Notes: a model not told the origin generated them from the sequence alone. A stretch of DNA of 64,000 bases from Clostridioides sp. (GCA_031261505.1 JAISJN010000008.1:62001-126000); one strand, 5' to 3'; positions 30,550 to 50,657 are shown, numbered from the stretch's first letter. Program-made: numbers and translations.

Positions 30550-31077
30550 TTATTCTGCCTTTCTAGTCAGTTCAACTATACTCTTCTTTTTTAACATCCT
30601 AGAAGGTATTGATGTTGCAAGTACAGCTATAACCATATTTAATCCAAAGATTATCAAATATAAATTGTAATCCATCACAAACTCAGCATTTTCAAAATCT
30701 ACCTTGAGTTTATTAAATATGATAGACTGTGCACTCAGAGATACTGCTATCGTCAATATATTTGCTATGAGTCCGTAACATGTACCCTGGAGATTTATCA
30801 TGTTTCTAAGTTTCTTCGCAGAAAGTCCTACTGACCTCATCATTCCAAATTCTTCAATCCTTGAAATTAAAAAATCATCCAGCCTTACTTCTCCCGATGT
30901 GGGTTTGTCGAGTCCTGCCATACAGTGGAGCAAGGTTGATTTACCTAATCCACTTGCCCCTACTATTGCTGTGAATTTCTTTGGCTCTATTTCTAGTTCT
31001 ATTCCGGCCAGTGCATTTACTTCGCTTTCGCCTTTTCCGTATATTTTTCTTAAATTTTCAACTCTTAATGTTTTCAT
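30550..31077 (-). pseudogene. In-frame fusion of an ABC ATPase start and an FtsX permease end
   Basis: A 175-residue open frame. Residues 1-65 are the start of a MacB-type ABC ATPase with its Walker A (GASGLGKST, 39-47); the C-loop and Walker B are missing. From about residue 72 it is the last part of an FtsX/MacB permease (RIEEFGMMRSVGLSAKKLR and two membrane helices). A deletion has joined the two genes in frame. Such a protein cannot hydrolyse ATP or transport. The ribosome site (GGGAGG) is intact, so it may still be translated. No other part of the transporter is in the window. Confidence 0.85.
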
Positions 31078-31180: not shown

Positions 31181-31226
31181 AGCATACCAAGAAAAATCCC
31201 ATTCTCGGAATCTCTCTCGGCATGCT
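31181..31226 (-). terminator. Terminator of the distal WxL cassette operon
   Basis: On the minus strand AGCATGCC pairs with GGTATGCT (8 bp, one G-U) around a 30-base interior, followed by TTATTTTTG. It lies 32 bases after the last WxL gene. The stem is modest, the U-tract good. Confidence 0.6.
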
Positions 31227-31257: not shown

Positions 31258-32013
31258 CTACTTAGGTGTATTCTCTAAATTCCACTCCATATCAGTGGTG
31301 TATTTCTCTTTACTCGCTGTACCGCCAATTACTAGCAGCGATATATTATGGTGATTTTCTTTTGTCACTGAATTTAGATACTGCGTTTCTTCATTTCCAT
31401 ATCTTGCGACAAAGTTTCCACTTCCAGAGTTTAGTTTTGCGTCCATGACTTCGTATTTAAATGTAGGACCTATATTTACTATATCTATTGTCTTATTAAC
31501 TGTTACACCAGAATTATTAGCTCCTGTCGCTGTTGTCGCTTTTTCTCCGTTGTTAAATGTTATTTTAGCGCCTTCCAATACTTTATTTGAAGGTGAGGTA
31601 AACTGTTTCTTTTGAGTAACTGTCATCTGCCAACCCTCGAAAGTTCCCCTGTCATCTGCTACCTGTGCATATCTAGGTTCCCAAGTGCCACTGTGGTGGT
31701 TATCGTCTACCTTTAGTGCATTCGCCCAGTATATCTTATTTGATGCCGATATCACTGTATTTCCAAATTCAAGAGTAGGTCTTACCACTATTTTGAGGTT
31801 ACCTATATTTGTAGTTGTATCCTCGCTTCCCGTAATTGGTTTATCTGGATCTGTTGGGTCTATAGCTGTACCTGGGTCTGTGTTTTCTATAAATGTAGCG
31901 GTACCATTCGAAGTCGCTGTGTCTGCCGATACCACTAATGCATTTCCAGTCGTAATTATAAATCCAGAGACAATTGCTATCGTCGCAAATTTTTTTAGCT
32001 TCGAAAATTTCAT
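31258..32013 (-). CDS. Small WxL-domain surface protein, cassette 1
   Basis: A 251-residue secreted protein: signal peptide (KFATIAIVSGFIITTGNALVVSA), a Pro-Asp rich linker (DPGTAIDPTDPDKP), and a WxL domain with its two tryptophan motifs (GWQMTVTQ and MEWNLENTP). WxL domains attach non-covalently to the wall or to partner WxL proteins. The first motif is W-Q-M, a slight departure from W-x-L. The start follows AGGGGGG. It is the last gene of cassette 1; paralogues lie at 35772 and 42611. Confidence 0.92.
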   Translation of the reverse strand: MKFSKLKKFATIAIVSGFIITTGNALVVSADTATSNGTATFIENTDPGTAIDPTDPDKPITGSEDTTTNIGNLKIVVRPTLEFGNTVISASNKIYWANALKVDDNHHSGTWEPRYAQVADDRGTFEGWQMTVTQKKQFTSPSNKVLEGAKITFNNGEKATTATGANNSGVTVNKTIDIVNIGPTFKYEVMDAKLNSGSGNFVARYGNEETQYLNSVTKENHHNISLLVIGGTASKEKYTTDMEWNLENTPK

Positions 32014-32044
32014 TTACTTGGTTCCCCCCTGTCATCTTAACTGT

Positions 32045-32112
32045 GTCTATATACATATCTGATTTCCTATATTTTCTATATTTACTTATCTTCTTATATT
32101 TCCTATATTCAC
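32045..32112. repeat. Short AT-rich tandem repeats after the CWB2 gene
   Basis: Imperfect repeats of TTTCCTATATT and CACTTATCTTCCTAT units of about 12 and 25 bp lie between the cassette-1 CWB2 stop codon and the following WxL gene. They occupy the place where the paralogues encode their C-terminal tail. They may mark the slippage or deletion that removed it. Confidence 0.6.
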
Positions 32113-33171
32113 TTATCTTCCTATAAGAATATGCCCATTTGATAGCCTTTGAGATATTTTGACCGCTGTCTCGTATCTGTTTAAACCAGCTACCCTTTCT
32201 GTTCTTAGGACTCCTAGGTTATTTTCAATGTATTGAGAAACTGAGTTCGTTCCTCCTCCTATCAATACATTTTCCATAGCCCATAGGTTAATTTTATTTT
32301 TAGTTATATCAGAGAGTTCAGTTGGATTCGTGAGTAGTATCGGTGCGTGGAAATTCGCAGCTAAGGTACTCACCGTAAGTCCATCTGGGAAGTTTGTACC
32401 GTCTACTAGCACCATATCCGACAAATTTGTAGTTGTATTTCTGACTTCTTCAGCAATGATTGAAGCTGTCTCATATCTATTTATTCCGCCAAATCTTCTG
32501 ACGTTTTGTGTTGTGAAACTGTCTTCTATTTGCTTAGAAACCGAATTAGTTCCTCCACCTATCGTAATATCACTTATAGACCACTCCGCAATCTTCTCCT
32601 TAGTAGACTGAGTAAGTGTAGGAGGTGTTGTAAGAAGTATCGGAACCCTAAGATGAGTTGCCAATCCAGATATAGTTATTACGTCTGGGAAGTTTGTACC
32701 GTCTACCAGCATTGCACCAGACAATACGTTGGTCAAACTTCTGACTTCTTTACCTATTTCTATAGCTGTATCATATCTATTTGCACCAGATACCCTTCTC
32801 ACTGCATAGCCAGATAATTGTGAAATTACTTTCTCAGATACTGAATCTTCGCCACCAGATATTATTATCTCATCTATATCGAGTCTTCTTATCTCGTCAA
32901 ACGTCTTTTCGTCTATCGAATCCCTGCTCGTAAGAAGTATAGGGCATTTCCTTTCATTTGCTAATACGGTTGATGCGAGTACATCGGTGTATTTTTCTCC
33001 ACTGGCTAGTATGACGTACTTCCTAGTACATGGATTTGGGGGTGGATTTTCATCTCCATCGAAACCTACCCCGCCACCCGACTCTGAACTATCAGCAAAT
33101 ACTACATTCATAGATAAGAGCATTGCAATGCTTAAAACTGTGACTCCGTTGAGAAGTTTTCTTACTTTCAT
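32113..33171 (-). CDS. Triple CWB2-repeat surface protein, cassette 1
   Basis: A 352-residue secreted protein: signal peptide (VTVLSIAMLLSMNVVFA), a short acidic linker, then three CWB2 repeats (PF04122), each with the I-L-A-S-G/L-V-D-G-T start and S-G-G/G-G-G-T-N-S-V-S end. In C. difficile three such repeats bind an anionic wall polymer, so this is probably a wall anchor. It stops right after LIGR, whereas both paralogues continue with a 20-30 residue tail. Start: ATG at 33171 after GGAG; upstream frame to 33324 lies in a repeat element. Confidence 0.92.
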   Translation of the reverse strand: MKVRKLLNGVTVLSIAMLLSMNVVFADSSESGGGVGFDGDENPPPNPCTRKYVILASGEKYTDVLASTVLANERKCPILLTSRDSIDEKTFDEIRRLDIDEIIISGGEDSVSEKVISQLSGYAVRRVSGANRYDTAIEIGKEVRSLTNVLSGAMLVDGTNFPDVITISGLATHLRVPILLTTPPTLTQSTKEKIAEWSISDITIGGGTNSVSKQIEDSFTTQNVRRFGGINRYETASIIAEEVRNTTTNLSDMVLVDGTNFPDGLTVSTLAANFHAPILLTNPTELSDITKNKINLWAMENVLIGGGTNSVSQYIENNLGVLRTERVAGLNRYETAVKISQRLSNGHILIGR

Positions 33172-33188
33172 AACACACTCTCCCTTCA

Positions 33189-33292
33189 TATAACTTGAGA
33201 AATATGTTTCCACCTCTGTATAGGTATAAATCTCTCGCCTCATCGGTAGAAACATTTTTCCTAACAAAACTTTAGAATCGCTCCCTTTTAAA
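33189..33292. repeat. Two-hairpin intergenic repeat, copy 5 (degraded)
   Basis: On the minus strand: TTTAAAAGGGAGCGATTC (changed box), a poor hairpin A, then GAGAGATTTATACC..AGAGGTGG..ATATTTCTCAAGTTATAT (hairpin B and terminal box). It lies inside the cassette-1 unit, between the large surface protein and the CWB2 gene, and ends right at the ribosome site of the latter. Confidence 0.6.
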
Positions 33293-33365
33293 CAAGTCCT
33301 ATCAAAGTGCATTCTCCGCAACACGCAATATAATCAATGTTTTCACTAACTATTTACAGTTCCTA

Positions 33366-35642
33366 TCAAGGTCCATTTGTCAAGGTCCACTCAATCGTTC
33401 CATTGTATGTTCCTTTTTCAATCGGAAGTCCATGGTAGTCTAGACATATACCTGTATTTGTTCCATTCCACTTACTCCCTGAAATATTGTATATCTCTGT
33501 AGTATTGGTATCTGAAACAATATCTACTGGAACATTTAATGCCATACTCTTTAGATTGCCATTGTCCAGATACGCTATCGCTCCACTCACAACTCTATTT
33601 GAAACGCTGTTAGTGAGTTCTTTTGTCGTCTTTGCTGATACCGTCCACGGAACCTTCGTCTTACGTGTGTCGCTTACAGCCAATTGACTGCCAGCTGCTA
33701 ATGGCTCAGCCAATTTCTTGTCTAGACCGATATTGTAGTTGTACTTAATGGTTCCAAAGTTTATAGTTTTAGGAACTATTAACTTCAGTTCTTCTGTAAC
33801 TATAGCACCCGTTTCACTTGAAACCCTGCTTAGATGTTGCATCAATGCCTGCTTTATTGTCTGCGTCGCCGAAGTTCCAGTGATTGTAAAGCCTGCACAC
33901 ATTTGATCTTCTATCGTACTGCTATTACTACCTGTTAACTTTATATTTCCACTGCTTCCTAGATTAAAACTTTGTGTAGGAGGTCCATTTATATTAAAAG
34001 GCTCTCTAGACCAGGTATTTATATTAGCACCGTTTATTGAAACATAAGAATATGAAAGTGTCTTCCAGAGCCATTCTCCACCGCCCTTATTTGCTATATC
34101 GTATACAGCTGGACTGTCCAGTAACAAACTTGTCGAAAAATCGTTTGAAGGACAGTGAACTGCTATAGCTCCAACTGCCTTCATAGTTCCAATAGGGTCG
34201 TAATAATAGCCTGTGTCATGTTTGCCTGTGTGACCATAGGCTAAAAATGTAGATCCCTTTCCTATTGTACAGTTGATATTGTCTCCGTTTAATAGTAAGG
34301 CCGTTCCATCTACTGACGTCAGACTCAAAAGCGATCCTTCTGATGTTGTCAAAGTCGTCTTGCCCTTCATAGTGAGCGCTACAGATTTATCGGTTCCCTT
34401 ACCAGTAGATATTATTATCAATTTTGCATTTTTTCCTACAGTCAGGGTTCCACCTGTCAAGACTTCACCAGTTGATTCTAGCTTAACTGTAGTTCCTTCT
34501 GCCACATTAAATCCATATCCTATACTCCCTCTGAGTAGAGGTTTTTGCGTTGTCGCTGGATTTTGGACTAGAGATATTGCCGATGAATCATCGCTTATAG
34601 TATTTCCACTGTAATTAGAGTCCTTGCTAAAATATAAATCTCCAGCCTGTACTGCACTGTATATTGTAGTTAAATCTACCTTCCCACTAAATGTCACCCT
34701 TCCAGAGCAAGACACTAGTCTAGGTATTGGATTTTTAGAATCTGTTGATATATTTCCTATTTCGAAATTCCAACCTGTTAGAGCCTGGTCTGAATTTGGA
34801 CCGAGTAGGGCAGATTGAGGAGATTCTTGATCTCTATCACCGTCATTCCAAAGTCCATCTGAAAGTATCTGTATATCGTGTATGTTAAATATCTTTGTCG
34901 TTATAGACTGTGATAAAGGTAAATCAGCCCTATCGCCCACTGAATATTCTTTTGGAAATATCAATTTATGATAAGAACCATCTTCTTTAGCTCCAGTTAT
35001 CTCGATATTGTTTTTTCTTCCTTGAAAAGTATTTCCTCCTGTAGCTGTTATATCACCCTTTAAGTGAATTTCCTCTACGGTTTCATTATTATATGCGTCC
35101 TTAAACTCATCCCAAGTACTCACTTCTCTAACTGCTATATTCGTTGGAACATTAGCTTCTATTAATACGCCATCTTCTGATTGTGACTCTTGGTTTTCTT
35201 GGTTCGATTGCTGCGTTTCACCAGATGTTTGATCATTTGGTATCGCTTCATCCTCTTCATCCTCTTCTACAGACGTTTCCTTATTTTCAAAATCTGTAGC
35301 CTTATCTTCTTCGCCCAAAGCTTTGTCTTCTTTATCTGCGTGTTTATCTTCTTCTCCTAATGCCTTGCTTTCTTTATTCAAATCTTCATCTTCTCCACTC
35401 AAAGCTTTGTTTTCTACTGTTTTATATATATTCTCGCTTGAATTATCAAGTTTATCTTCACCCTTGTTCTCAAGTCCACCCGTCAAAATACTTCTGTTGG
35501 TGTTAAATGAGGTATCTCTCATTTCAGCAGAAACCAATATGCCTGATGAAGAGAGGGTAAGTGCTAGTGCAGCACCTAGTGCTGCTAATCTTTTACATAG
35601 CTTTTTAAATTTAATTTCAATGCACCTCCATTCGCGTTGCAC
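33366..35642 (-). CDS. Large surface protein with adhesive and WxL-like domains, cassette 1
   Basis: A 758-residue secreted protein. It has a signal peptide (LAALGAALALTLSSSGILVSA), an acidic low-complexity stalk with repeated KALGEEDK units (about 80-150), and a beta-helix-like domain (VSTWDEFKDAYNN onward, resembling the pectate-lyase-like adhesive domain). The C-terminal WxL-like region has VPWTVSAK and, at the end, GTIEWTLTNGP. It lacks the Ig-like N-terminal domain of its two paralogues. The ORF begins at a GTG (35642), but the GGAGG lies downstream of it, so translation may begin at an ATT or other codon near 35610. The first W motif reads W-T-V rather than W-x-L. Confidence 0.85.
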   Translation of the reverse strand: MQREWRCIEIKFKKLCKRLAALGAALALTLSSSGILVSAEMRDTSFNTNRSILTGGLENKGEDKLDNSSENIYKTVENKALSGEDEDLNKESKALGEEDKHADKEDKALGEEDKATDFENKETSVEEDEEDEAIPNDQTSGETQQSNQENQESQSEDGVLIEANVPTNIAVREVSTWDEFKDAYNNETVEEIHLKGDITATGGNTFQGRKNNIEITGAKEDGSYHKLIFPKEYSVGDRADLPLSQSITTKIFNIHDIQILSDGLWNDGDRDQESPQSALLGPNSDQALTGWNFEIGNISTDSKNPIPRLVSCSGRVTFSGKVDLTTIYSAVQAGDLYFSKDSNYSGNTISDDSSAISLVQNPATTQKPLLRGSIGYGFNVAEGTTVKLESTGEVLTGGTLTVGKNAKLIIISTGKGTDKSVALTMKGKTTLTTSEGSLLSLTSVDGTALLLNGDNINCTIGKGSTFLAYGHTGKHDTGYYYDPIGTMKAVGAIAVHCPSNDFSTSLLLDSPAVYDIANKGGGEWLWKTLSYSYVSINGANINTWSREPFNINGPPTQSFNLGSSGNIKLTGSNSSTIEDQMCAGFTITGTSATQTIKQALMQHLSRVSSETGAIVTEELKLIVPKTINFGTIKYNYNIGLDKKLAEPLAAGSQLAVSDTRKTKVPWTVSAKTTKELTNSVSNRVVSGAIAYLDNGNLKSMALNVPVDIVSDTNTTEIYNISGSKWNGTNTGICLDYHGLPIEKGTYNGTIEWTLTNGP

Positions 35643-35702
35643 TCTGTTGCTAATGTCCTTTTAGGTGTCTTTTTAAGCTTGATCAAAATTTTTGGTAAAA
35701 CC

Positions 35703-35738
35703 CATTGAAGCATTCGGTGTACGCCAAATGCTTCAATG
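35703..35738 (-). other. Junction hairpin after WxL cassette 2
   Basis: A 12-bp perfect stem (CATTGAAGCATT with AATGCTTCAATG) between the cassette-2 WxL gene and the cassette-1 large gene, followed on the minus strand by GGGTTTTACC. The U-tract is short, so partial termination is likely. The equivalent junction at 42532-42569 has a hairpin with a related core (AAGCATT..GG). Confidence 0.75.
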
Positions 35739-35771
35739 AGTTTACATATATTATTGTCTAAACAGGCCTCG

Positions 35772-36536
35772 TTATTTAGGTGTATTTTCAAGGTTCCAAG
35801 ACAATGTAGTATTGTACACTTCTTTACCAGCTGTTCCACCTTTTACAAATAATGAAATATTGTGGTGATTTTCAGTTGTTCCATCTATATACTGAGTTTC
35901 TTGATCTCCAAATCTAGTAACGAAACTTCCATTACCACTGCCAGCCTTAGCATCCATTACTGTATATTTATAAGTTGCTCCTATATTTTGGAGAAGTACA
36001 GTAGGTTGTGAAGTTACGCCTAAAAAGTTTGCAGTTGAAGTATCTGTGAACATACTTGATTTTCTACCATTGTTAAATGTAATCTTTGCTCCATCCAACT
36101 GTTTTCCTGATGTCACTCCTGTAAATTGATTTAACTGAGCTACTGTTAAATGCCAACCCTTAAACTCACCTGTATCATCTGTAACCTGTACGTATCTAGG
36201 TTCCCATATTCCGCCGTGGTGGTTGTCGTTAACTTTTAGAGATGAAGCGTAGTAAGTCTTATCTGCTGCAGAGACTTTTTGTTCTCCAAATACCAATGTT
36301 GGTCTTACTACTATCTTTAGTTCTCCACCATTTCCAGTTTGATCTCCTCCACCGTTGTTTTCTTGACCTGGGTCAGTTGGGTCGATTGGTGTTCCTGGAT
36401 CATTGTTAGGCACAAACTCTGCTGAACCTCCTGAAGTAGAGCTATCTGCAGATACGATTAAACCAGTACCCCCAACTACCACCAATCCTGTTACCATTAC
36501 CATTGCAGTAAGTTTTTTTAATTGTGAAAATTTCAT
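35772..36536 (-). CDS. Small WxL-domain surface protein, cassette 2
   Basis: A 254-residue secreted protein: signal peptide (TAMVMVTGLVVVGGTGLIVSA), DPGTPIDPTDPG linker with a glycine-rich stretch, then the WxL domain (GWHLTVAQ and LSWNLENTP, both true W-x-L motifs). It is closely similar to the cassette-1 paralogue over its whole length (shared HHNISL, FVTRFG/FVARYG, LDGAKITFNNG/LEGAKITFNNG). The start follows AGGGGGAAA. It comes after the cassette-2 CWB2 gene. Confidence 0.95.
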   Translation of the reverse strand: MKFSQLKKLTAMVMVTGLVVVGGTGLIVSADSSTSGGSAEFVPNNDPGTPIDPTDPGQENNGGGDQTGNGGELKIVVRPTLVFGEQKVSAADKTYYASSLKVNDNHHGGIWEPRYVQVTDDTGEFKGWHLTVAQLNQFTGVTSGKQLDGAKITFNNGRKSSMFTDTSTANFLGVTSQPTVLLQNIGATYKYTVMDAKAGSGNGSFVTRFGDQETQYIDGTTENHHNISLFVKGGTAGKEVYNTTLSWNLENTPK

Positions 36537-36647
36537 AGCTATTTCCCCCTGTTCTCTTTATTTTTTATATTTTTGTTACATTGTAACCTCGTCGATATTT
36601 CATTTTTTTCCTAGACGGGATCCGCCCAGTATTTATTCAATATATCC

Positions 36648-37844
36648 TTATTGAATACCAAATACCCTGTTAAACAGAGTTCTAAATATGCTCTGTTTTT
36701 CCACCGAGCTAGCCCTCGCTGCTGGGTTAGTAGCCATTCTTCCTATTGGAGTGTCTTTGCTAGATAGCCTTTCAGATATCTTAACCGCTGTCTCGTATCT
36801 ATTTATACCAGATACCCTCTCCACTCTCTTTACCCCTAGGTTGTCCACAACATTTTTCGATACGGAGTTTATACCTCCGCCAATCAATACGTTTTCCATA
36901 CCCCAAACACTCATTTTGCTTTTCGTTGTATCATGTAGTGCAGCTGGATGTGTGAGCAATATAGGTGCTTTGAAAGCTGCTGCCAATGTACTTACTGTAA
37001 GCCCATCTGGGAAGTTAGTACCGTCGACTAGCACCATATCTGTTGAATTTCCAGCTTTGTTTCTAACCTCTTGCGCTATAGATAAAGCTGTTTCATATCT
37101 ATTTGATCCACCAAACCTCACAACTTTCTGTGTTGTAAAGCTATCTTGAATTTGTTGAGATACTGAATTAGTACCTCCACCAATTGTTATATCATTTATA
37201 GACCATTCTTTTATTTTATCCTTGGTAGACGTTGTCAACGTTTGCGGCGATGTGAGTAGTATCGGCACTCTAAGTTGAGTTGCCAGTCCAGATATAGTTA
37301 TTACGTCTGGGAAATTTGTACCATCTACCAACATTGCTCCAGATAAAATATTGGTCAATCCTCTAACTTCTTTAGCCACTTCAATTGCAGTCTCATATCT
37401 ATTTGCTCCAGATACCCTTCTTGTAGTGTAACCGGATAACTGTGTTACTATCTTTTCTGATACTGAATCTGGACCTCCAGATATTATTACTTCCTCAGTC
37501 TTAAGTCTTTTTATTTCATTTAAGGTCTTTTCATCTAATGAATCTTTTGTTGTCAACAGTATAGGACATTTCCTCTCATTAGCTAAAACAGTAGAAGCAA
37601 GGACGTCTGTATATTTTTCACCACTGGCGAGTATGACGTATTTCTTATCAGTAGGTTCTGGAGTTTCGCCTCCGCCACCACCACTTCCGCCTCCGCCGCC
37701 ACTTCCGCCGCCTCCGCTATCATCATCTACGAACTTAACGCCACTCTCTGACAAAGTGCTACTGTCAGCTAAGACTACATTCGTACTTAGTGTCAAAGCA
37801 ATACTTATAAATGCTACTCCTTTAAGAAATTTTTTTAGTTTCAT
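36648..37844 (-). CDS. Triple CWB2-repeat surface protein, cassette 2
   Basis: A 398-residue secreted protein: signal peptide, then a flexible linker of GGGGSGGGGG type, three CWB2 repeats, and a C-terminal tail ending in a basic-hydrophobic segment (SIFRTLFNRVFGIQ). The Gly-Ser linker probably spaces the wall-binding part from something at the N terminus. The tail could be an amphipathic helix for partner binding. Start: ATG at 37844, eleven bases after AAAGG; the ATG at 37853 is too close to that site. It lies 81 bases after the large protein gene. Confidence 0.93.
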   Translation of the reverse strand: MKLKKFLKGVAFISIALTLSTNVVLADSSTLSESGVKFVDDDSGGGGSGGGGGSGGGGGETPEPTDKKYVILASGEKYTDVLASTVLANERKCPILLTTKDSLDEKTLNEIKRLKTEEVIISGGPDSVSEKIVTQLSGYTTRRVSGANRYETAIEVAKEVRGLTNILSGAMLVDGTNFPDVITISGLATQLRVPILLTSPQTLTTSTKDKIKEWSINDITIGGGTNSVSQQIQDSFTTQKVVRFGGSNRYETALSIAQEVRNKAGNSTDMVLVDGTNFPDGLTVSTLAAAFKAPILLTHPAALHDTTKSKMSVWGMENVLIGGGINSVSKNVVDNLGVKRVERVSGINRYETAVKISERLSSKDTPIGRMATNPAARASSVEKQSIFRTLFNRVFGIQ

Positions 37845-37925
37845 ACTATACATATCCTTTACACTTCATATTTTTATTATTTTAACCCGATATACTCAGG
37901 CCTTATTTCAATATCAGACAATCTA

Positions 37926-40478
37926 TCAAGGTCCTACATTTAATAATGTCCACTCGATTACTCCATCGTATGTTCCCTTTTCTATAGGAAGCCCGTGGTA
38001 ATCCAGACAAACTCCAGTACTAATGCCATCCCAAGTTGTACCTGAAATATTGTAAACTGTGTCAATATTCTTATGTGTCATAATTAGTACGGGTGAAGCA
38101 CTCACTATAGGTTTTAACACTCCATTATCTAGGTATGCCATAGCATTTTCTATCTTACGACCTGAGATAGCGTTTGTTAACGGTGTTTTTTCCTGTGCCG
38201 ATAACTTCCAATCAACCTTATCTGTGTGAGTATCTATTACGGATAATTCACTAGTACTCGCTAGAGGCTCTGCTAGTTTTTTATTGAGTCCGACATTCGC
38301 ATTGTATTTTATAGTTCCAAAATTTATAAGCCTTGGCACTGTAAATGTCAACTCTTCGCTTATAGAATTACCCCTGTTTGAAATTCTGGCAACGTGTTTT
38401 TTAAGTGCTTTTTCTAAATCTCTATTTACAGGATAGGTCGAGACTCCCAACTCAATGTTAGTGTTTATCTCTATCCCTCTAACCCCAACATAATGTACGC
38501 CGTGGAAATTATAATCAGCTGCTTGTTCGAGATGTCCTGGCACTCCAGGCTTAGTCTCCCAAATATATTCATCGCTATCTATTATTTCCATGATTGAATC
38601 CTGTGTCGGTTTGTATATCCAATTTCCATTAGGTGCCCTGTTTGCAATATCGAAGTACTTAGGGTTATCAAGTACAAACCTAGTCGTAGCGTTTGTATAC
38701 TGACTAAAACCAATAGCACCTCGTTGATCTCCTCCGCTGTTGCCTTGAGAATATCCATGTGTTATAAAAGTTGATCCTGGGTGAAATGTGACCTCTGTGT
38801 TCTCTCCTTTTAGCCACATTACACAATTTCCTTTTTTCAAAACTGGGTCATATGCCCTTAAATCCACTACCGAGCCATCATAAGCATCAAATGTAGTCGG
38901 ATCTAACTTTGATCCAAATTCCAGATGTATTGTAGCATTTACACCAGTATATCCGTACAGTTGAGCATCTTGATTTATTATAAAATGTTTAGTAGCACGG
39001 TCTACAATCGGACCAATTGAAGTAATTTTGACCTTTGCAGCACGGGCGAGTTCGAAATTTCTGGAATCTCCTGTAGTCTTATACCCATACTGTCCTTCTA
39101 TTCCATTTTCATCTTTCCCTGGAAAATAAATTCCATTTGAAGCCATATTGCTTACAATTTTTGACTCGTATTGCACATCTGGTTCAAAATATAAACTTCC
39201 TACATCCATAGCTGTATTTAGAGTGTATAACTCCACCTTGCCTCCTATTGTGACTTGGCTAAATGCGTATATCAGTCTCGGAATAGGGAGATTCTTATTA
39301 GTACTTATATTTCTAAACTCAAATTTCCAACCAGCAGCATCTTTGTAACTATCTCTTTCGTTGGTTTCTTCATGCAATGCTGATCCTATCAGGGCATTTC
39401 CACTTCTTTCTGCAAATCTTTCATGAGGATCCCAATTGCCATCTGATAATATTTCCACGTCGTGTAATTTAAACATTCTCGTATTGGATTCTGTCTGAGA
39501 CCTTTGATACGCCTTATTATCGTATATAGGCAAATCCGAAGATTGCATACCAGTACTTTCAGCCGAGTAATAATGAGGGAATGTAAGCTTATAATGAGAA
39601 TCCGCTGTCTTCACACCACTTATCTCAATATCATTTTCCCTAGGGCGCGTATAGTACACCGAACCTGTAGCCACAATATCTTTTTTTAAGATAATGTGAG
39701 TTATGCTCTGGTTGTTGTACGCTGACTGAAATTCCAACCAGCTACTTACCTCTGCAGTGTCTAAAGCCCTTACAGCTGCTACCTTCGCTGGGTTTTGTTC
39801 ATTTTTATCATCTTGTTCTTGCTCTTGAGTTTGACTTTGGCTTTGGTCTTGACCTTCACCTTGGTCTTTGTCTTGACTTTGTTCGTCGGCATCTTTTTCT
39901 TCTCCGCTAGGATTAGTTTTGTCGCCGGCTGAGTCAGTATCTTTAATTACCTTTAATTCCAAATCATTTGATATAATATCTCTATCCTCTGATAATATAT
40001 TAAATACTCCAGAACATTCATCTAGAGATTTTAGGAATATTCTAATATTCTCTGGCAGACCGTCTACATCCTTAGGGGCTATGCTTAGCTCTCTATTGAT
40101 TTCATCGAAGTCTATATATACATTTTTGTTTTCATCTTGTGTTTTTTTCGTCAATACTTCTATTTTGTCAGGAATCCTACCGTGAATAGTACCGCTCAGT
40201 GTCTTTTCTGTCAGTATAATTGAAATGTCAAATTCATCGTTTATGCTTATTTGATCTGAACTCAATGTAATTTTTATTGCCTTATCTTTAACTGCATCGT
40301 CCTTAATTGTCTTGCTGTTTAAATCTTTCTCCGTCGCCTTCTTACTCGAGGAAGATATCGAACTTTCCACCTGGACACTCTTTAGAGCATTTCCTTGAGC
40401 AAAGACTATTCCTAAATTCGAGTAAGTTAAAACTACACCTGCCATAGCAACGAGTACTATCATTCTTTTGAATTTCAA
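37926..40478 (-). CDS. Large surface protein with Ig-like, adhesive and WxL domains, cassette 2
   Basis: An 850-residue secreted protein: signal peptide (IVLVAMAGVVLTYSNLGIVFA), a region with ITLSSDQISINDEFDISI that reads like an Ig-type domain (about 70-190), an acidic Gln-rich stalk (DQGEGQDQSQSQTQEQEQDD), and the beta-helix-like adhesive domain (VSSWLEFQSAYNN onward). The C-terminal WxL domain follows (VDWKLSAQ, then GVIEWTLLNV). The ORF starts at a TTG (40478), 19 bases from the GGGGG site; two in-frame ATT codons lie closer. It is preceded by a leader of about 360 bases with its own promoter. Confidence 0.87.
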   Translation of the reverse strand: MKFKRMIVLVAMAGVVLTYSNLGIVFAQGNALKSVQVESSISSSSKKATEKDLNSKTIKDDAVKDKAIKITLSSDQISINDEFDISIILTEKTLSGTIHGRIPDKIEVLTKKTQDENKNVYIDFDEINRELSIAPKDVDGLPENIRIFLKSLDECSGVFNILSEDRDIISNDLELKVIKDTDSAGDKTNPSGEEKDADEQSQDKDQGEGQDQSQSQTQEQEQDDKNEQNPAKVAAVRALDTAEVSSWLEFQSAYNNQSITHIILKKDIVATGSVYYTRPRENDIEISGVKTADSHYKLTFPHYYSAESTGMQSSDLPIYDNKAYQRSQTESNTRMFKLHDVEILSDGNWDPHERFAERSGNALIGSALHEETNERDSYKDAAGWKFEFRNISTNKNLPIPRLIYAFSQVTIGGKVELYTLNTAMDVGSLYFEPDVQYESKIVSNMASNGIYFPGKDENGIEGQYGYKTTGDSRNFELARAAKVKITSIGPIVDRATKHFIINQDAQLYGYTGVNATIHLEFGSKLDPTTFDAYDGSVVDLRAYDPVLKKGNCVMWLKGENTEVTFHPGSTFITHGYSQGNSGGDQRGAIGFSQYTNATTRFVLDNPKYFDIANRAPNGNWIYKPTQDSIMEIIDSDEYIWETKPGVPGHLEQAADYNFHGVHYVGVRGIEINTNIELGVSTYPVNRDLEKALKKHVARISNRGNSISEELTFTVPRLINFGTIKYNANVGLNKKLAEPLASTSELSVIDTHTDKVDWKLSAQEKTPLTNAISGRKIENAMAYLDNGVLKPIVSASPVLIMTHKNIDTVYNISGTTWDGISTGVCLDYHGLPIEKGTYDGVIEWTLLNVGP

Positions 40479-40619
40479 CTTAGGATTTACAATAATACAC
40501 CCCCTATATACAGTGATATCCTTTGATTATGTAACCCAATCCCACTATACATAATCATTAGCTAATCCCAACCCCACTCAAATTCAAGAAACAATATATA
40601 ACTTTCTAAGTAGTCAATC

Positions 40620-40640
40620 GAGTAAACAGGGAATTTACTC
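40620..40640 (-). promoter_or_regulatory. Conserved leader hairpin upstream of the cassette-2 large gene
   Basis: GAGTAAA and TTTACTC pair around a TTCCCTG loop on the sense (minus) strand, 142 bases before the TTG start. The leader of the cassette-3 gene has the same hairpin with compensating base changes (47786-47806). Confidence 0.65.
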
Positions 40641-40842
40641 TGAATTCCGTATACAGCTGTAAATCGTCGATACTATTTTTGTATACCATTGTACCTTATT
40701 ACAAACTACAGAATTTAAGAAAATAATTCTAACAATTTGTATTTTGTCGAATAAATTCAGTATACAATATTCGTTATATTTTGTGATATTATGTCTATTT
40801 ATACAATTGTTTCTAAATTCAGTAACCTTTAGGATTAATCAT

Positions 40843-40893
40843 ATTTTAGCACCATAGTCATAATGTGTCAACAGTTTTAAATTGTATACATTA
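40843..40893 (-). promoter_or_regulatory. Cassette-2 promoter with upstream box
   Basis: On the minus strand TTGACA (40866-40871), 17 bases, TAAAAT (40843-40848). The 22 bases just before the -35 element (beginning TAATGTATACAATTT) are nearly identical to those at the cassette-3 promoter. Transcription would begin near 40836. The box contains the palindrome TGTATACA. Confidence 0.8.
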
Positions 40894-41341
40894 GTTTTTA
40901 TTTTAAAACTAGTTTTATATTATTTTATTTATTCTTCGACATATTTTTATTTATTTTTTGTATTCAAAAATTATTTTATATTTTATCTGTATTTTCTATA
41001 ATTTTCTTCTCTAAATTGCATTTTTCCTCTTTATTTACTAATTTAAATTAACTATTTTTAATATTTATTAATATTTTTGTTTTTATGATACTATCGTATT
41101 TCATCTTTATTCGACTTTTTCTAAATTATCAATATTTTATATGATTATCTTAATATTGATACTATTTTATTCTTAATTTCTTTCTTTGAAACTTTATTCT
41201 GCAAGTATAAGTTGTTAACCATTTAATTATCTAGATATCACTAATTCAGTCATTATTTTAAATATTTTGTTTTTTGTATGTAATATATTTTTAGTCTTTA
41301 CGGACAATTCGCTTATTCCCTTAAATAAGATCAAAAGAAAA
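40894..41341. other. Very AT-rich spacer between cassette operons
   Basis: About 450 bases with hardly any G or C and no coding frame worth naming. One copy of the AATTCAGT motif (41243-41250) occurs. It may act as an upstream activating or curved-DNA region for the cassette-2 promoter. Confidence 0.5.
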
Positions 41342-41369
41342 CCTCCCCCAGCTATTACACTGGAGGAGG
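41342..41369 (-). terminator. Terminator of the cassette-3/WxLIP operon
   Basis: On the minus strand CCTCCTCCAG pairs with CTGGGGGAGG (10 bp, one G-U), followed by TTTTCTTTT, 45 bases after the WxLIP stop codon. Confidence 0.92.
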
Positions 41370-41413
41370 CTTCCTCTTAATTTTAGTACATATATATATA
41401 TTAAAAATTGATA

Positions 41414-42439
41414 TTACTCTTCTTCAATCGATTTTTTCTTTTTCTTGACTACGAAGAATATTATTCCTGCTATTACTACTACTGCAGCTATTGCTCCTAC
41501 TATTATCCAAGTGTAGTCTTTTACATCCACGTCACTTGCATTCAAGTCTTTAGCCTGGTCATCTGTTACTGTAAATTCTTTGTCAAATTCCCAGTGATTA
41601 GCCCCTGCATTTGCTTCTAAATGCATGTAGTATGTTCCTGCTTCTATCCTTTCTCCATTCAACCTTGTCATATGATCAAAGTTTGAGTTTGGAGCCATCT
41701 GGAATTTTTCGTCGCTTGCAGAGAACAAAGTCTTCTTAGCCTTATCGCCCTTTTTATATACCTTTGTCTTAATAGACATATCTCTTATATATCTAGGCAC
41801 TGGGTTTTGTAAATTTGATGCTATAATAGTTCTAGCGTTACTCTGTGTAGCCTTGACATCGTTTAAACGAAGATCTGCATTTATATTTTTTGAATCGTCC
41901 TGATGAAGGACTACCCCGATGATAAACGCATAGGTGTTTTTGATATTAGCACCTGTAGTCTGAGTTTCCTCTGTCTTTTTTTCTTCTTCTTTTTGTCTAA
42001 AAGTGAATCCACCCGCTAGTATACCATCAAATTTTTCAGCTGGTGCAGTCAACTTAAATTGGACAACTTTTTCACTGTTTTTAGGTATACTGACTTCTTT
42101 GTCTACCTTTATTATGTCTTTCATCGAATACTTAAGAGTACTGTCCTTTTTAGCATCTGTATCACCGTAGTTTATAACTCCTGTAGGTGAAGAGGTTGCA
42201 GAGTTAACAGTAGGCAAAATAATGATATCCTTGTCGCCCGTGTTTTTAACAACTACCTCTAATGTCTCTTGTTGACCTGGTGTCACTAGTACGTCAAAGT
42301 ATGACTTTGATTTATCCACTTGGTTTTCAGGTATGTTTGCACTTACAGTGAAGTCTGAATCCAATGCATTTACCATGCCTGTAGACATTCCTAAAACAAG
42401 TACTAATGATGATATTAGCACAGCTATTTTTTTTCTCAT
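41414..42439 (-). CDS. WxL-interacting protein (DUF916/DUF3324) with membrane anchor
   Basis: The 341-residue WxLIP type: signal peptide (VLISSLVLVLGMSTGMVNA), a first beta domain beginning FTVSANIPENQ and SKSYFDVLVTPGQQETLEV (DUF916-like, peptidoglycan-binding in its family), a second (DUF3324-like) with ENTKV-type host-binding strands, then a membrane helix (WIIVGAIAAVVVIAGIIFFVV) and a basic tail. It should tether WxL complexes to the membrane and wall. It is the only such gene in view, so probably serves all three cassettes. An 8-bp hairpin lies between its GGAG and its ATG. Confidence 0.93.
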   Translation of the reverse strand: MRKKIAVLISSLVLVLGMSTGMVNALDSDFTVSANIPENQVDKSKSYFDVLVTPGQQETLEVVVKNTGDKDIIILPTVNSATSSPTGVINYGDTDAKKDSTLKYSMKDIIKVDKEVSIPKNSEKVVQFKLTAPAEKFDGILAGGFTFRQKEEEKKTEETQTTGANIKNTYAFIIGVVLHQDDSKNINADLRLNDVKATQSNARTIIASNLQNPVPRYIRDMSIKTKVYKKGDKAKKTLFSASDEKFQMAPNSNFDHMTRLNGERIEAGTYYMHLEANAGANHWEFDKEFTVTDDQAKDLNASDVDVKDYTWIIVGAIAAVVVIAGIIFFVVKKKKKSIEEE

Positions 42440-42450
42440 ATTTTCTTTCT

Positions 42451-42471
42451 ATTCAAATATATTGAATAGTT
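42451..42471 (-). promoter_or_regulatory. Hairpin between ribosome site and start of the WxLIP gene
   Basis: CTATTCAA-(5)-TTGAATAG, a perfect 8-bp stem, separates GGAGAA (42472-42477) from the ATG at 42439. Linear spacing (more than 30 bases) is too long for initiation; folding of the stem would bring the site within about 11 bases of the start. Confidence 0.7.
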
Positions 42472-42531
42472 CTCCTTTCCGATTGTGATTGATCTCAATG
42501 TAGTTTTGGGATTGAACCCTAGTTGTAAAAT

Positions 42532-42569
42532 CTCGTAAAAGCATTGGAGTAGCCCAATGCTTTTACGAG
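42532..42569 (-). other. Junction hairpin between the cassette-3 WxL gene and WxLIP
   Basis: A 16-bp perfect stem (CTCGTAAAAGCATTGG with its complement) followed on the minus strand by ATTTTAC, a weak U-tract. It could be a partial terminator lowering WxLIP expression relative to WxL, or an RNA-processing site. Confidence 0.8.
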
Positions 42570-42610
42570 TGTTTATATGATTAATTAATTATTGTCTAAA
42601 TATTAGTTTC

Positions 42611-43411
42611 TTATGGTTGTGGTACTGGTACATTTTCTAAATTCCAATCAAGTGTAGTGCTATATGCTAGTTTTTTAGCAGAACCACCCTTAATAAATAG
42701 AGATATATTTTCATGTGGATATTTTTTTGGATCATTTGGATCAAAATCTTTTTGTTGATTCCCAAATTTATTTATAAAATTACCATCACTTGATCCTACC
42801 GCTGCATCCATTACAACTACACTTGAATTCAAAGTTGCTAAGCTAACAGTTTGTTGAGCTGTTACACCTGTCTTATTTTGATTACTTGATAACGAACCAT
42901 TAGTAAATGTTAATACTGCTCCTGTTAATTCTTTAGAACCGTCTTGCGAACTAGTTTTAAACTGTTCATTTTGCTTTACAGTTAACTTCCATCCTTCCGC
43001 TGTTCCTCTGTCGTTTTTCACTTGTACATATTTTGGTTCCCAATTACCTTTAGTAGATGAATCAGGTGAATGATTATCGCTAACTTTTAATGGCTGTGCC
43101 CAGACTGTCTGATCGCTTACAGATGTTTTTTGTAAACCAAAATTTAAGTTTGGTGTAACTACTAGAACTAGCTCGCCATTATTATGTGTTATATCTGGAT
43201 CATCTGGATCATCTGGGTCTAGTGGATTTTCTGGATCTGTTGGGTCTTCTGGGTCACCTTCCCCACCTCCACCTGCATTAAATACAACTTTCGCATTGCT
43301 TAACTTAGAATCCACTGTATCTGCTGATACTACACCAGTACCTGCTGCAACTACTACCATTCCTGCTACCATCGCCACTGAGGCGAACTTTCTTAGTTTT
43401 GAAAATTTCAT
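42611..43411 (-). CDS. Small WxL-domain surface protein, cassette 3
   Basis: A 266-residue secreted protein: signal peptide (SVAMVAGMVVVAAGTGVVSA), a GGGGEGDPEDPTDPENP linker, and the WxL domain (GWKLTVKQ and LDWNLENVP). It is more diverged from the other two than they are from each other; for instance it has DNHSPDSSTKGNWEPKYVQV where they have DNHHxGxWEPRY. The start follows AGGGGGAAA. It lies between the cassette-3 CWB2 gene and WxLIP. Confidence 0.95.
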   Translation of the reverse strand: MKFSKLRKFASVAMVAGMVVVAAGTGVVSADTVDSKLSNAKVVFNAGGGGEGDPEDPTDPENPLDPDDPDDPDITHNNGELVLVVTPNLNFGLQKTSVSDQTVWAQPLKVSDNHSPDSSTKGNWEPKYVQVKNDRGTAEGWKLTVKQNEQFKTSSQDGSKELTGAVLTFTNGSLSSNQNKTGVTAQQTVSLATLNSSVVVMDAAVGSSDGNFINKFGNQQKDFDPNDPKKYPHENISLFIKGGSAKKLAYSTTLDWNLENVPVPQP

Positions 43412-43483
43412 ACAATTTTCCCCCTGTTTAAATAATATATTATAATTTTTGTTGCTAACATCATTAATTTGTATGCCTAGAGG

Positions 43484-44632
43484 CTATCCTCTTCCGAAAA
43501 GTTTAATGTATATAGATCTAAATATGCCTGATTTTTTTTCTTCCTGTTGAGGTCCCATTCTGCCTATAGGCACGCTCACTCTGGTAAGTCTCTGAGATAT
43601 TTTGACTGCTGTCTCGTATCTATTTGCACCAGATACTCTTTCTACCTTCTTGGCATCAAGAGTTGTTTCAATTTTTTCAGAGACCGAAGATGGACCTCCG
43701 CCTATCAATACATTTTCGATAGCCCAGTTTTTCATCTTGCTCTTTGTTAAATAATGCAGTTCACTTGGCTTAGTGAGTAGGATTGGCGCCTTGAAATTAG
43801 CCGCTAAGGTGCTCACTGTAAGTCCGTCTGGGAAGTCTGTACCATCTACTAGTACCATATCTTTTAAATTACCAGTCTTGTTTCTGACCTCTTGACCTAC
43901 GATCACTGCTGTTTCATACCTATCTGTCCCGCCGAACCTAGCTACGGAATCTACAGATAAGTTATTTTCTATTTTTTTAGATACTGAATTAGTCCCACCA
44001 CCTATTGTGATGTCCCTGATGGACCAATTAGCAATCGTATCCTCAGTTGACTTGGATAATGAGGCTGGGGTCGTAAGCAGTATTGGTATTCTTCTTTGGG
44101 TCGCCAAACCAGATATAGTTATTACGTCTGGGAAGTTAGTCCCGTCTACCAACATAGCACCTGACTTATTGCCAGTTAGATCCCTTACTTCATTTCCTAC
44201 CTGTATTGCTGTCTCGTATCTGTTTTTACCAGCTATCCTTCTAACTGTGTACGCATTTGATAACTGCGATACTACATTTTCAGACACTGAATCTGTACCA
44301 CCCGATATTATAACTTCATCGGTCTTTAATCTTTTTATTTCAGCTAAGGTCTGGTCGTCGACCGAGTCTTTAGCTGTTAATAATATAGGACATTTTTTTT
44401 CATTTGCTAGTACTGTGGAAGTCAGAACATCCGTATACTTTTGACCACTCGCAAGTATGACATATTTCTTGTCGACGGAACCTCCGCCTCCTCCACCGGG
44501 ATCTTCAGGTTCGCCTTCTTCAAATGTGATTCCTGCACCGGTTTGACTACCACCTGCTAATACTACATTTGTACTCATGCTCAATATAATACTAACAAAC
44601 GCTACTCCTTTAAGAAATTTATTTACTTTCAT
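43484..44632 (-). CDS. Triple CWB2-repeat surface protein, cassette 3
   Basis: A 382-residue secreted protein with signal peptide, short Gly/Pro linker (EPEDPGGGGGG), three CWB2 repeats and a basic-hydrophobic tail (KKSGIFRSIYIKLFGRG) matching that of cassette 2 in character. Start: ATG at 44632, nine bases after GAGG; the ATG at 44641 is too close. It is 436 bases from the preceding large gene, the widest such gap of the three cassettes, so an internal promoter is possible. Confidence 0.93.
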   Translation of the reverse strand: MKVNKFLKGVAFVSIILSMSTNVVLAGGSQTGAGITFEEGEPEDPGGGGGGSVDKKYVILASGQKYTDVLTSTVLANEKKCPILLTAKDSVDDQTLAEIKRLKTDEVIISGGTDSVSENVVSQLSNAYTVRRIAGKNRYETAIQVGNEVRDLTGNKSGAMLVDGTNFPDVITISGLATQRRIPILLTTPASLSKSTEDTIANWSIRDITIGGGTNSVSKKIENNLSVDSVARFGGTDRYETAVIVGQEVRNKTGNLKDMVLVDGTDFPDGLTVSTLAANFKAPILLTKPSELHYLTKSKMKNWAIENVLIGGGPSSVSEKIETTLDAKKVERVSGANRYETAVKISQRLTRVSVPIGRMGPQQEEKKSGIFRSIYIKLFGRG

Positions 44633-45068
44633 ACTATACATCCTCTTTTATTGCATATTTTATGTTACTTATTTTATTGTTTTTACAGTAAATTTTGGTT
44701 CGATTGAAATTTTGAAATGTCAGTGCAAACTAGTGTAGCTGCATCTATATAAGTCGTCTAAGACTTCATCTATGTAGTTTATTCCTGAAATGATATATGT
44801 AATCCGCAAGTTTAATTGTATCTCTATATCTCCATGGATTGTCAGTACTCAGTTTGAGCGTAATAATACATAGTAAACAGCACACATATGTACTGATCTA
44901 TATTTCATATACACTGAACTTGTACGCTTTCTTTCTTTGCAGTAAGCTAGATTTAGCAGCACTGCTCCCCATGTTTCCCCCCGAATTGCAATCTTTCAGC
45001 AATCTAGTTAATTTTACATATCAATAATCATTTTATTTCTGTGTTTCTATTTTATTCTAGCATAATCA
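44633..45068. other. Intergenic region within cassette 3
   Basis: This 436-bp gap is far longer than the 81- and 194-bp equivalents. It contains a small hairpin (AAGTC..GACTT near 44750) and no convincing ORF. It may carry an internal promoter for the CWB2-WxL-WxLIP part. No copy of the two-hairpin repeat was seen here. Confidence 0.45.
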
Positions 45069-47636
45069 TCAAGGTTTAGTTGAAGGTACATTTGATAATG
45101 TCCATTCTATAACTCCACTATACGCTGTCTTCCTCATCGATGGTCCATCATATTCTAGACACAAGCCGGTTTTTGGTCCCCACGTATCTGTAATATTATT
45201 TGCATCTGAAGTATTTGTAATATCTTTGAGAATCTGCAAACTTTCAGTTGTCAGAATCTTTTCAGGTTTTCCATCTGTCATGTACGCTATCCCTGTGTCG
45301 TTTACATCTTCTCTATTAATATATTCTTTAAAATCATTTTTCAACGGCTCCTTCATTCTTACTGATAAGGACCACTTAACCTTCTTAGTATTTGGATCGG
45401 TTATGATGAGATTCTTATCATAATGTTCTGGCACCCTCTTGCTTATTGGTTTCGAGATAGAATATTGTACTGTTCCAAAATCTATATTATTAGGTACTGT
45501 AAACGTAAGAGGCAATGTATCAGTCGAATCTGAAAAGCTAGAAAATCTAACGACATAATTTCCTTTCATCATCGCTGGAATCGTTGGATCCGGAGCATCA
45601 GAATCAACTTCCAAATCTTTGTGAGAAATACCAGTATTATGGTAATATTTATCAGTACACATACTCGTTCCAGTTATCTTAACCGTAAAATACGTGCCAC
45701 TCTCATTTATACGATCTGTATGAGTTGTATGAATTGTGAAAGCATTGATATCGCTACCTCTATCCCAAATAGAGGTATTCTTTGTTGTAATATTTATCGA
45801 AGAGTTAACGCTTCCAGTCGTCTTACATATCCAGTCTCCTCCACCTTTATTTACTATGTCGTAAAGGGCAGGTTTGTACAAGTTAATTTCTGTACTACTA
45901 CAACCATTCTTACCAGAAAGGGCTATAACTCCTGGATTAAAGTCATCACTTGTATCATTCTTATCTTCACCATTACCTACACCATCATTTGGTCCAGTAC
46001 TTCCAGATGCTTTAAATGTTCCGCCCTCACCTATGTTAAATTTAATATTATCACCATTTAGATATAAGGCAGATCCGTAACTTGATTCTAAAATAACTTT
46101 AGATCCATTCTTGGTTTCAAGTTTAGTGCCGTTATTCATAGTTAGTGCTGGCTCAGTTGTTGCTTTGCTTTGTTTTATATTCAGCTGAGCTCCTTCTTCA
46201 ACTGTTACAGTCCCCGTATTTATAATTTGTGGACCATTAGGCGTATAACTTCCATTTTTTTCAATTGTTATTTTTTTCTCCAAATCGTTACTAGCTCTTA
46301 AAAGAGGCATTTTCTGTGATTCAGTTAGCTCAACTGCAGGAGATTCTTCGTTTGCAGCCCCACCCGTGTAATCAGCACCCTCACTGATTACTATGTTTGC
46401 AGCCTCTACTGCACTGCAAATCGTTGTCAATTCTAATTTTCCACTGAATACAACCTTGCCTGTGCAAGATACTAATCTAGGAATCATTTTATCAGAATCC
46501 GTCGATATATCGCGTAGGTCGAAATTCCAACCAGATAGTAGTTCACTCGTATTAGAGCCGATTAAAGATATATTTGACTTATCTGAATCCACGTCCTCTA
46601 CGCTCCACGCTCCATCTGAAATCACTTCTACCTTGCTAAGTTCAAAATGTTTTAAATGTCCTCTAAGTAAGCTTACTAGCGGTAAATCTGCCTTTCCACT
46701 TACTGAGTAACTCTTTGGAAACATCAACTTAGAATGCGATCCATCTTCTTTTATTCCTATTATCTTAATATCATTTTTTCTTCCCTGAAATTCGTTTGCA
46801 CCAGTGGCTTGGATATCAGACTTTAACTGTATCTCTTCCACATCTTCATTGCTGTATGCATCCTTAAATTCATCCCAGGTACTTACTTGCCTAATTGAAT
46901 CTGAAACATCTGTACCATTCTGTACTTCAGTATTTCCTTGTAAATCAATAACCTTTTCACCCGCTGGGATATTATCAGGTATGCCGCCTTGTTCAGGCAC
47001 AGGTTTTCCGACATTCAGTTGAATGTCATTTGATATTACTTCTTCTTCCGTAGTCAATAAGCTCACAACATTTGAACCCTCAGAATTCGCTTTTAAGAAT
47101 AGTCTAATATCCTCAGGCTGCACCTCGGGTTTATTGTAACTTATGATTAAATTTCTACTTGTGTCATCGTATGTGGTAGTTATGTCGTTATTTTCTTGGT
47201 CTGTCTTTTCCTTCAAAAATTCTATATTGTCAGGGATCTTTATATGAATAGTGTCTTTCAGTAACTTATCTGTCTGCTCTGTCGACTTAATCGAAATGTA
47301 AAATTCATCACTTATGCTTATCTGATCTAAACTTAATGCTATCGTTACTGGTTTACTTTTGTCAGCCTTGCTATGTGGTTCACCTAATTCCGCAGCCCTA
47401 TCGTCGTCTCTTCTTAAATTGTCAGCCTTGTTACTTAAATCCTTGTTAGCCTCTTGTGTTCCCCCTGATACATAGCTATTTCTCTTGTCTTTTGTCGTAA
47501 GAGCATTACCATGCACTGAGACTAGACCAATATTTGAAGTAGAGAAACTCATAGCTATCACAGCACTTACTGCTACAATTGGTTTAAATATTTTCCTCAC
47601 GTTAAATAATACACCCCCACTCGTATTATTATTCAT
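45069..47636 (-). CDS. Large surface protein with Ig-like, adhesive and WxL domains, cassette 3
   Basis: An 855-residue secreted protein: signal peptide (IVAVSAVIAMSFSTSNIGLV region), the Ig-like domain (IALSLDQISISDEFYISI, about 95-210), adhesive domain (VSTWDEFKDAYSN onward, almost the same as in cassette 1) and the C-terminal WxL domain (VKWSLSVR and GVIEWTLSNV). The ATG at 47636 has no ribosome site; GGGGGTG lies after it, favouring the in-frame GTG at 47600. It heads the cassette-3 unit, with a leader of about 270 bases. Confidence 0.87.
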   Translation of the reverse strand: MNNNTSGGVLFNVRKIFKPIVAVSAVIAMSFSTSNIGLVSVHGNALTTKDKRNSYVSGGTQEANKDLSNKADNLRRDDDRAAELGEPHSKADKSKPVTIALSLDQISISDEFYISIKSTEQTDKLLKDTIHIKIPDNIEFLKEKTDQENNDITTTYDDTSRNLIISYNKPEVQPEDIRLFLKANSEGSNVVSLLTTEEEVISNDIQLNVGKPVPEQGGIPDNIPAGEKVIDLQGNTEVQNGTDVSDSIRQVSTWDEFKDAYSNEDVEEIQLKSDIQATGANEFQGRKNDIKIIGIKEDGSHSKLMFPKSYSVSGKADLPLVSLLRGHLKHFELSKVEVISDGAWSVEDVDSDKSNISLIGSNTSELLSGWNFDLRDISTDSDKMIPRLVSCTGKVVFSGKLELTTICSAVEAANIVISEGADYTGGAANEESPAVELTESQKMPLLRASNDLEKKITIEKNGSYTPNGPQIINTGTVTVEEGAQLNIKQSKATTEPALTMNNGTKLETKNGSKVILESSYGSALYLNGDNIKFNIGEGGTFKASGSTGPNDGVGNGEDKNDTSDDFNPGVIALSGKNGCSSTEINLYKPALYDIVNKGGGDWICKTTGSVNSSINITTKNTSIWDRGSDINAFTIHTTHTDRINESGTYFTVKITGTSMCTDKYYHNTGISHKDLEVDSDAPDPTIPAMMKGNYVVRFSSFSDSTDTLPLTFTVPNNIDFGTVQYSISKPISKRVPEHYDKNLIITDPNTKKVKWSLSVRMKEPLKNDFKEYINREDVNDTGIAYMTDGKPEKILTTESLQILKDITNTSDANNITDTWGPKTGLCLEYDGPSMRKTAYSGVIEWTLSNVPSTKP

Positions 47637-50528: not shown

Positions 50529-50602
50529 CTGCTCCCCCCCAATCCTTTACAAGATAAATCATAGCATATGATTATTAAATTTTTGTTAAATTGTAAAAAA
50601 AA

Positions 50603-50636: not shown

Positions 50637-50657
50637 CTTTTTTTGGATAATATGCTT

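Follow-up and report, generated by a model that had tools for sequence, protein, structure and literature searches.

Organization of the locus

Why should genes for CWB2 proteins, a type of wall anchor known from C. difficile, lie three times over inside a cluster of WxL genes, where the usual partner is an LPXTG protein? The question is raised by a locus in a 64,000-nucleotide stretch of DNA (the window) that belongs to a 2.14 Mb draft genome of the genus Metaclostridioides. An earlier note on this DNA had described a three-fold repeated order (large WxL-ended protein, triple-CWB2 protein, small WxL protein) accompanied by a single WxLIP gene. All ten ORFs were found in their places, all on the minus strand, and the three-fold order is present as claimed; the locus is a hybrid gene set. 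The first cassette encodes a large WxL protein of 855 amino acids (45069..47636), a CWB2 protein of 385 amino acids (43484..44641) and a small WxL protein of 266 amino acids (42611..43411). It is followed by the WxLIP gene (41414..42439) and a terminator-like hairpin 3' of it (41332..41379, minus strand, from a consensus scan only). The second cassette encodes a large protein of 850 amino acids (37926..40478), a CWB2 protein of 401 (36648..37853) and a small WxL protein of 254 (35772..36536). In the third, the genes for a large protein of 758 amino acids (33366..35642), a CWB2 protein (32113..33324) and a small WxL protein of 251 amino acids (31258..32013) precede another terminator-like hairpin (31181..31226, minus strand, consensus scan only). 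The third CWB2 ORF, of 403 codons, opens about 51 codons upstream of the likely signal-peptide methionine (likely start near 33171), and its product is without the C-terminal tail of the other two window CWB2 proteins.

Domain assignments with Pfam were clear for most of these products. The WxL domain (PF13731) scored over cut-off in the three small proteins (E = 6e-41, 4e-45 and 4e-44) and CWB2 (PF04122) in the three middle ones (E = 1e-49 to 5e-52), each with three full repeats and a partial stretch. The single WxLIP serving the three cassettes has both of its domains, PGBD and HBD (PF06030 and PF11797, E = 1e-38 and 1e-41), and a C-terminal transmembrane helix with a lysine-rich tail; its nearest solved chain is EfmWxLIP1 (9i1y, E = 8e-43). 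Under the positive-inside rule, such a tail after a transmembrane helix fits a bacterial membrane and not the host membrane proposed in the literature. All three large proteins contain the pectate-lyase-like adhesive domain PF20585. Their description as WxL-ended was borne out by Pfam over cut-off for the third protein alone; the first scored 13.8 bits (below cut-off) and the second gave no match. The WxL ends of the large proteins are divergent, and those of the first two were recognized by alignment, in which all three retain the FGT core together with both W-x-[LV] motifs.

The window holds no LPXTG-type sorting signal, and no sortase-like protein was noticed among its products. The claimed absence of sortase and LPXTG stands for the window but not genome-wide, since three sortases are encoded on other contigs, adjoining PKTG substrates. 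Loss of sortase as the cause of a change of anchor was rejected on the same ground.

Recurrence of the gene order

The same genome contains two tandem sets in the order CWB2-small WxL-WxLIP-large on one contig (C21) and one more set on another (C11); an orphan large WxL gene on a third (C13) adjoins a pair of LytTR-type regulator genes, as judged from reading the sequence. Three congeners have one cassette set each. In M. mangenotii the order is large-CWB2-small WxL-WxLIP, in Clostridioides mangenotii TR it is the same with a broken CWB2 gene, and in a congener known from a MAG it is large-small WxL-WxLIP-CWB2, i.e. the CWB2 gene lies 3' of WxLIP and not 5' of the small WxL gene. Since the order recurs elsewhere in the genome and in congeners, it is not due to chance. 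Conservation in relatives had been named beforehand as a test, and the outcome was positive: the order is kept in M. mangenotii, and adjacency of CWB2 and small WxL genes is kept in the other clusters of the genome.

Beyond these genomes the arrangement is narrowly distributed. WxLIP was found in 4 of 71 genomes of the family, all from Metaclostridioides and none from the other genera sampled, and it is rare among 394 genomes sampled from the order and 391 from the class; the few WxL clusters read from these two samples contain no CWB2 gene. Among 79 named WxLIP loci, CWB2 is confined to Metaclostridioides.

The upstream neighbour of the small WxL gene

CscD, a tiny sortase-anchored protein, is often encoded immediately 5' of small WxL genes in lactic acid bacteria, bacilli and Anaerocolumna. 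CscD was defined as an LPXTG protein of 90–140 residues of which only a peptide of 40–60 residues stays on the wall, and its alignment was judged uninformative at the time (Siezen 2006, PMC1534035); the literature searched yielded no role for it. Outside Metaclostridioides, 46 of 76 WxLIP loci have a small sorted protein with the N-terminal strand motif described below beside a WxL gene; in 45 of them its gene immediately precedes that of a small WxL protein, and the sorting signals vary (LPxTG, IPxTG, IPxAG). CscD was not found in some WxL clusters elsewhere and is therefore usual but not obligatory.

This place is taken by a CWB2 gene in 8 of 9 Metaclostridioides cassettes. For comparison, the order is large-LPXTG-small WxL-WxLIP in Anaerocolumna, also a clostridium, and large-CWB2-small WxL-WxLIP in M. 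mangenotii. The window has no CscD with an LPXTG sorting signal, and the five genomes of the genus give no match over cut-off to the CscD model NF053819.

A shared N-terminal strand motif

In the cassette CWB2 proteins the signal peptide is followed by a short segment, then by a linker rich in Gly and Pro, and then by the three CWB2 repeats. Between signal peptide and repeats a single residue is invariant, a phenylalanine that belongs to S-x-x-G-[IV]-x-F or a close variant of it, and small WxL proteins have the equivalent segment directly after the signal peptide. In the window the motif reads TGAGITF (44522..44542), SESGVKF (37731..37751) and SGGGVGF (33061..33081) in CWB2 proteins 1 to 3, and SNAKVVF (43280..43300), SGGSAEF (36414..36434) and SNGTATF (31891..31911) in small WxL proteins 1 to 3, all on the minus strand.

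Written as [ST]xxx[VIAT]xF, the motif lies near the mature N-terminus of 9 of 9 cassette CWB2 proteins and of 1 of the 21 other CWB2 proteins of these genomes. The difference is significant (Fisher P ~ 2e-6 for 8 versus 21 genes), although the P value overstates it, because the regular expression was picked after the sequences had been viewed and because the cassette proteins are homologues. The pattern also occurs in 138 of 179 small WxL proteins and 25 of 32 CscD proteins, as against 4 of 85 WxLIP, 0 of 24 large WxL proteins and 6% of shuffled sequences. Directly before the WxL domain it was found in 121 of 167 small but only 2 of 25 large proteins. At 79 loci, mostly from Bacilli, CscD and small WxL proteins further have in common Y(-2), N(+1) and G(+2), positions that played no part in the choice of the motif.

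With a pattern picked in hindsight, the least biased evidence comes from a search with NF053819, the NCBIfam model of CscD (EF2685/EF0750 family; cut-off 47 bits), which includes the signal peptide. Of 16 weak matches genome-wide, all below cut-off, four fall on the N-termini of cassette CWB2 proteins (four of the six, including CWB2 protein 3 of the window; best score 22.6 bits) and three on small WxL N-termini, and none lies in the other CWB2 regions of the genome. A position matrix built from the N-termini of LPXTG CscD proteins alone (13 columns, YG..Y tail included) failed to distinguish cassette CWB2 proteins from the rest (P = 0.09): in the CWB2 version, the flanks typical of CscD have not been kept. 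The case for an N-terminal link between CWB2 proteins and CscD is good, although not proven by sequence alone.

CWB2 repeats and their divergence

The PILL motif is kept in 9 of 9 CWB2 repeats of the window. In C. difficile, CWB2 binds PSII, and anchoring requires ILL (PMC4973711); PSII or a like polymer would be the ligand of the cassette proteins in this genus as well, by analogy. The genome is rich in CWB2 (91 repeat matches), and on contig C14 a locus combines murJ genes with CWB2 genes. The cassette CWB2 modules form one well supported clade together with four CWB2 proteins encoded outside the WxL clusters, consistent with recruitment from among the CWB2 proteins of the genus itself. On the best tree of the repeats the cassette proteins require three changes, and one origin is also possible. 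Large adhesins of the same genome that are fused directly to CWB2 are not clearly homologous to the WxL adhesins.

Identity matrices of CWB2 repeats, small WxL proteins and large WxL ends are correlated (Mantel r = 0.80–0.84, permutation P < 0.001), a correlation driven by two groups, the window and C21/C11. Similarity of the N-terminal strand of a CWB2 protein to that of its own small WxL protein also exceeds that of cross pairs overall (17.1 versus 8.5, permutation P = 0.0016), and this excess is absent both within the window array (~11 versus 10) and within the C21/C11 group (~17 versus 20).

A proposed exchange of the wall anchor

The explanation that we favour is that the locus is a WxL (Csc) locus in which the CWB2 protein corresponds to CscD, its sortase signal having been exchanged for a CWB2 module that binds wall polymer; we put its probability at about two in three. 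Such a swap is well supported by position and motif, and the suggestion that CWB2 proteins take the part usually played by an LPXTG protein is supported by both the shared gene slot and the shared N-terminal strand motif. WxLIP, held in the membrane by its C-terminal helix, would take up secreted WxL domains. The small WxL protein would carry the large WxL adhesin, a predicted beta-helix that probably binds polysaccharide or a host surface. The CWB2 protein, which would have kept the strand of CscD and small WxL proteins, with CWB2 repeats in place of the LPXTG signal behind its Gly/Pro-rich linker, may plug this strand into a WxL domain, and the complex would then hang on wall polymer by the three repeats, non-covalently, as in C. 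difficile on anionic PSII.

The CWB2 proteins might instead be independent wall proteins that travel with WxL genes and whose N-termini are alike owing to signal-peptide context or gene fusion. The abundance of CWB2 in the genome is in keeping with this, as are CWB2 genes of the same subclade that lie close to two clusters but do not belong to them. Independent proteins, however, would not be expected to be confined to strand, linker and repeats, with no other domain of their own, to fill the CscD slot, to diverge in step with their WxL partners, and to bear a motif that is otherwise seen in just one of 21 CWB2 proteins; we therefore consider this alternative unlikely.

A slightly poorer prospect is that each cassette is a private adhesin set, three proteins fitting only one another, an idea traced to the earlier note, in which each cassette was one interchangeable adhesin set. 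Each cassette does comprise one large, one CWB2 and one small WxL protein, and the three families do diverge in step. The lack of any same-cassette excess of strand similarity within either group argues against such pairing, as does the sharing of one WxLIP by three cassettes, and this part of the earlier proposal was not upheld.

Least probable of all, and quite improbable, is that the CWB2 protein is an S-layer-type block, i.e. a spacer or S-layer element around a complex whose WxL domains bind peptidoglycan unaided: such binding has been reported (PMC10599100) and the repeats score against the NCBIfam S-layer model of SlpA (E = 1e-29 to 1e-37), but the match is confined to the CWB2 part and far below cut-off, an SlpA-like ectodomain is absent, and strand motif and gene slot are left unexplained.

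If the CWB2 protein is the CscD counterpart, a CscD-like strand in front of an unrelated wall anchor would mark the strand as the working part of CscD, and tethering to the wall as its job. Two worlds of anchoring, sortase and CWB2/PSII, would be joined, adhesins could be hung on the clostridial wall polymer in modular fashion, and a simple hypothesis for assembly of the WxL complex would follow.

Structure models and a possible donor strand

A sequence search found no solved WxL structure. The AlphaFold model of small WxL protein 2 has a pLDDT of 84 (81–91 for its N-terminal segment, residues 31–60); the N-terminal motif is confidently placed, and DSSP assigns no strand there. Its closest structural matches are donor-strand pilins, those of type 1 and Csu among them (Foldseek probability up to 0.94, E = 0.01 or worse), with VIA-align Z up to 5.8, a range in which the match may reflect no more than a shared arrangement. 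For large protein 3 the model is of low quality (pLDDT 66), and only its beta-helix and its C-terminal WxL domain were used; the beta-helix is closest to SRRP of Lactobacillus reuteri and to pectate lyases, and Csu pilins rank lower, matching a short part that is probably the WxL end, at low confidence. After its signal peptide FimA of E. coli K-12 begins AATTVNGGTVHFKGEV, similar to YxSNGxVxF. In a published model a WxLIP strand completes the WxL sandwich, in parallel (Hassan 2023, PMC10599100). The literature searched contained nothing relevant on WxL together with CWB2, donor strands or chaperone-usher systems.

Because of the likeness of the small WxL model to donor-strand pilins, the published WxLIP model and the FimA N-terminus, the shared segment may be a donor strand, the step of the argument of which we are least sure. 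More broadly, and tentatively, since we think this rather less likely than its opposite, WxL systems could be a Gram-positive donor-strand system: WxLIP would be the chaperone, held in the membrane and completing the WxL sandwich with a strand of its own, the small WxL protein would both give (Y-x-S-x-G-x-V-x-F) and accept, the large WxL protein would accept only, as the tip, and CscD or the CWB2 protein would give only, as the wall-tethered base. If true, this would explain why CscD leaves so short a peptide on the wall, and the exchange of anchor in Metaclostridioides would reveal the strand to be what counts in CscD.

Relation to known systems

Chaperone-usher pili (type 1, Csu) resemble the WxL proteins in that the small WxL model is nearest their subunits and that the alternating N-terminal strand G-x-V-x-F recalls NGGTVHFKG of FimA, and the strand that WxLIP contributes in the published model resembles donor-strand exchange (PMC10599100). 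They differ in that there is no outer membrane here, no sequence homology was seen between the two, and the Z-score is low. With the C. difficile CWP family the cassette CWB2 proteins share a signal peptide and three tandem repeats with PILL; C. difficile CWPs, however, often have a functional domain of their own, whereas the cassette proteins have a short N-terminal segment and a linker, and their genes lie inside a WxL cluster. The CscD-type family NF053819 is matched in the N-terminal half of its model, although below cut-off and without the LPXTG half.

With the WxL/Csc clusters (CscA–D) the locus shares a WxLIP with both domains and a transmembrane helix, a small WxL protein, a large protein with a C-terminal WxL domain, all in adjacent genes, and a secreted partner with an N-terminal strand motif in the CscD slot. 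Where CscD is short and carries LPXTG, the partner here has 368–439 amino acids, three CWB2 repeats and no sorting signal, and the host belongs to the Clostridioides family and not to Lactobacillales or Bacilli. The Metaclostridioides locus is a variant of the known WxL system, marked by a CWB2 gene in the place usual for that of CscD.

Features within and bordering the WxL array

A perfect 16-bp inverted repeat (42532-42569) separates the small WxL gene of the first cassette from the WxLIP gene and is possibly an intra-operon terminator or attenuator. At the upstream edge of the array, 5' of the first cassette, lies a short minus-strand frame (48325-48516) similar to the C-terminal end of the large WxL proteins; it is likely the leftover of one more large WxL gene. 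Two AI-2E family transporter genes are found in tandem on the minus strand at 49365-51976, and a gene for a Mga-type HTH regulator (PF05043) is located upstream of the array on the plus strand (59140-60612). Regulator-like genes are also present on the 5' side of some lactococcal WxL clusters (L082, L089 and L106). At the downstream border, a minus-strand ORF (30550-31077) that begins as an ABC ATPase and finishes as an FtsX-type permease looks like the product of an internal deletion.

Related loci in the same genome and in congeners

The CWB2 gene of the WxL cluster is intact in M. mangenotii DSM 1289, whereas in strain TR it is broken into two frames (L033, 11183-12288, minus strand). An orphan large WxL gene is carried by another contig of the window's genome (C13; L031, 5588-8215, minus strand); it has no WxLIP, CWB2 or small WxL gene among its neighbours, and the genes next to it appear, from their sequence, to encode a histidine kinase and a response regulator of the LytTR type. 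The same genome encodes three sortases at two loci (L136 and L137; contigs C19 and C9), each sortase being adjoined by a large PKTG-ended surface protein; these constitute a sortase-anchored system apart from the WxL array. Finally, judged by reading its sequence, contig C14 (L026 and L130) carries multiple CWB2 genes accompanied by a sugar transferase gene and a pair of genes for murJ-like flippases, a locus similar to the cwp/anionic-polymer locus of C. difficile.
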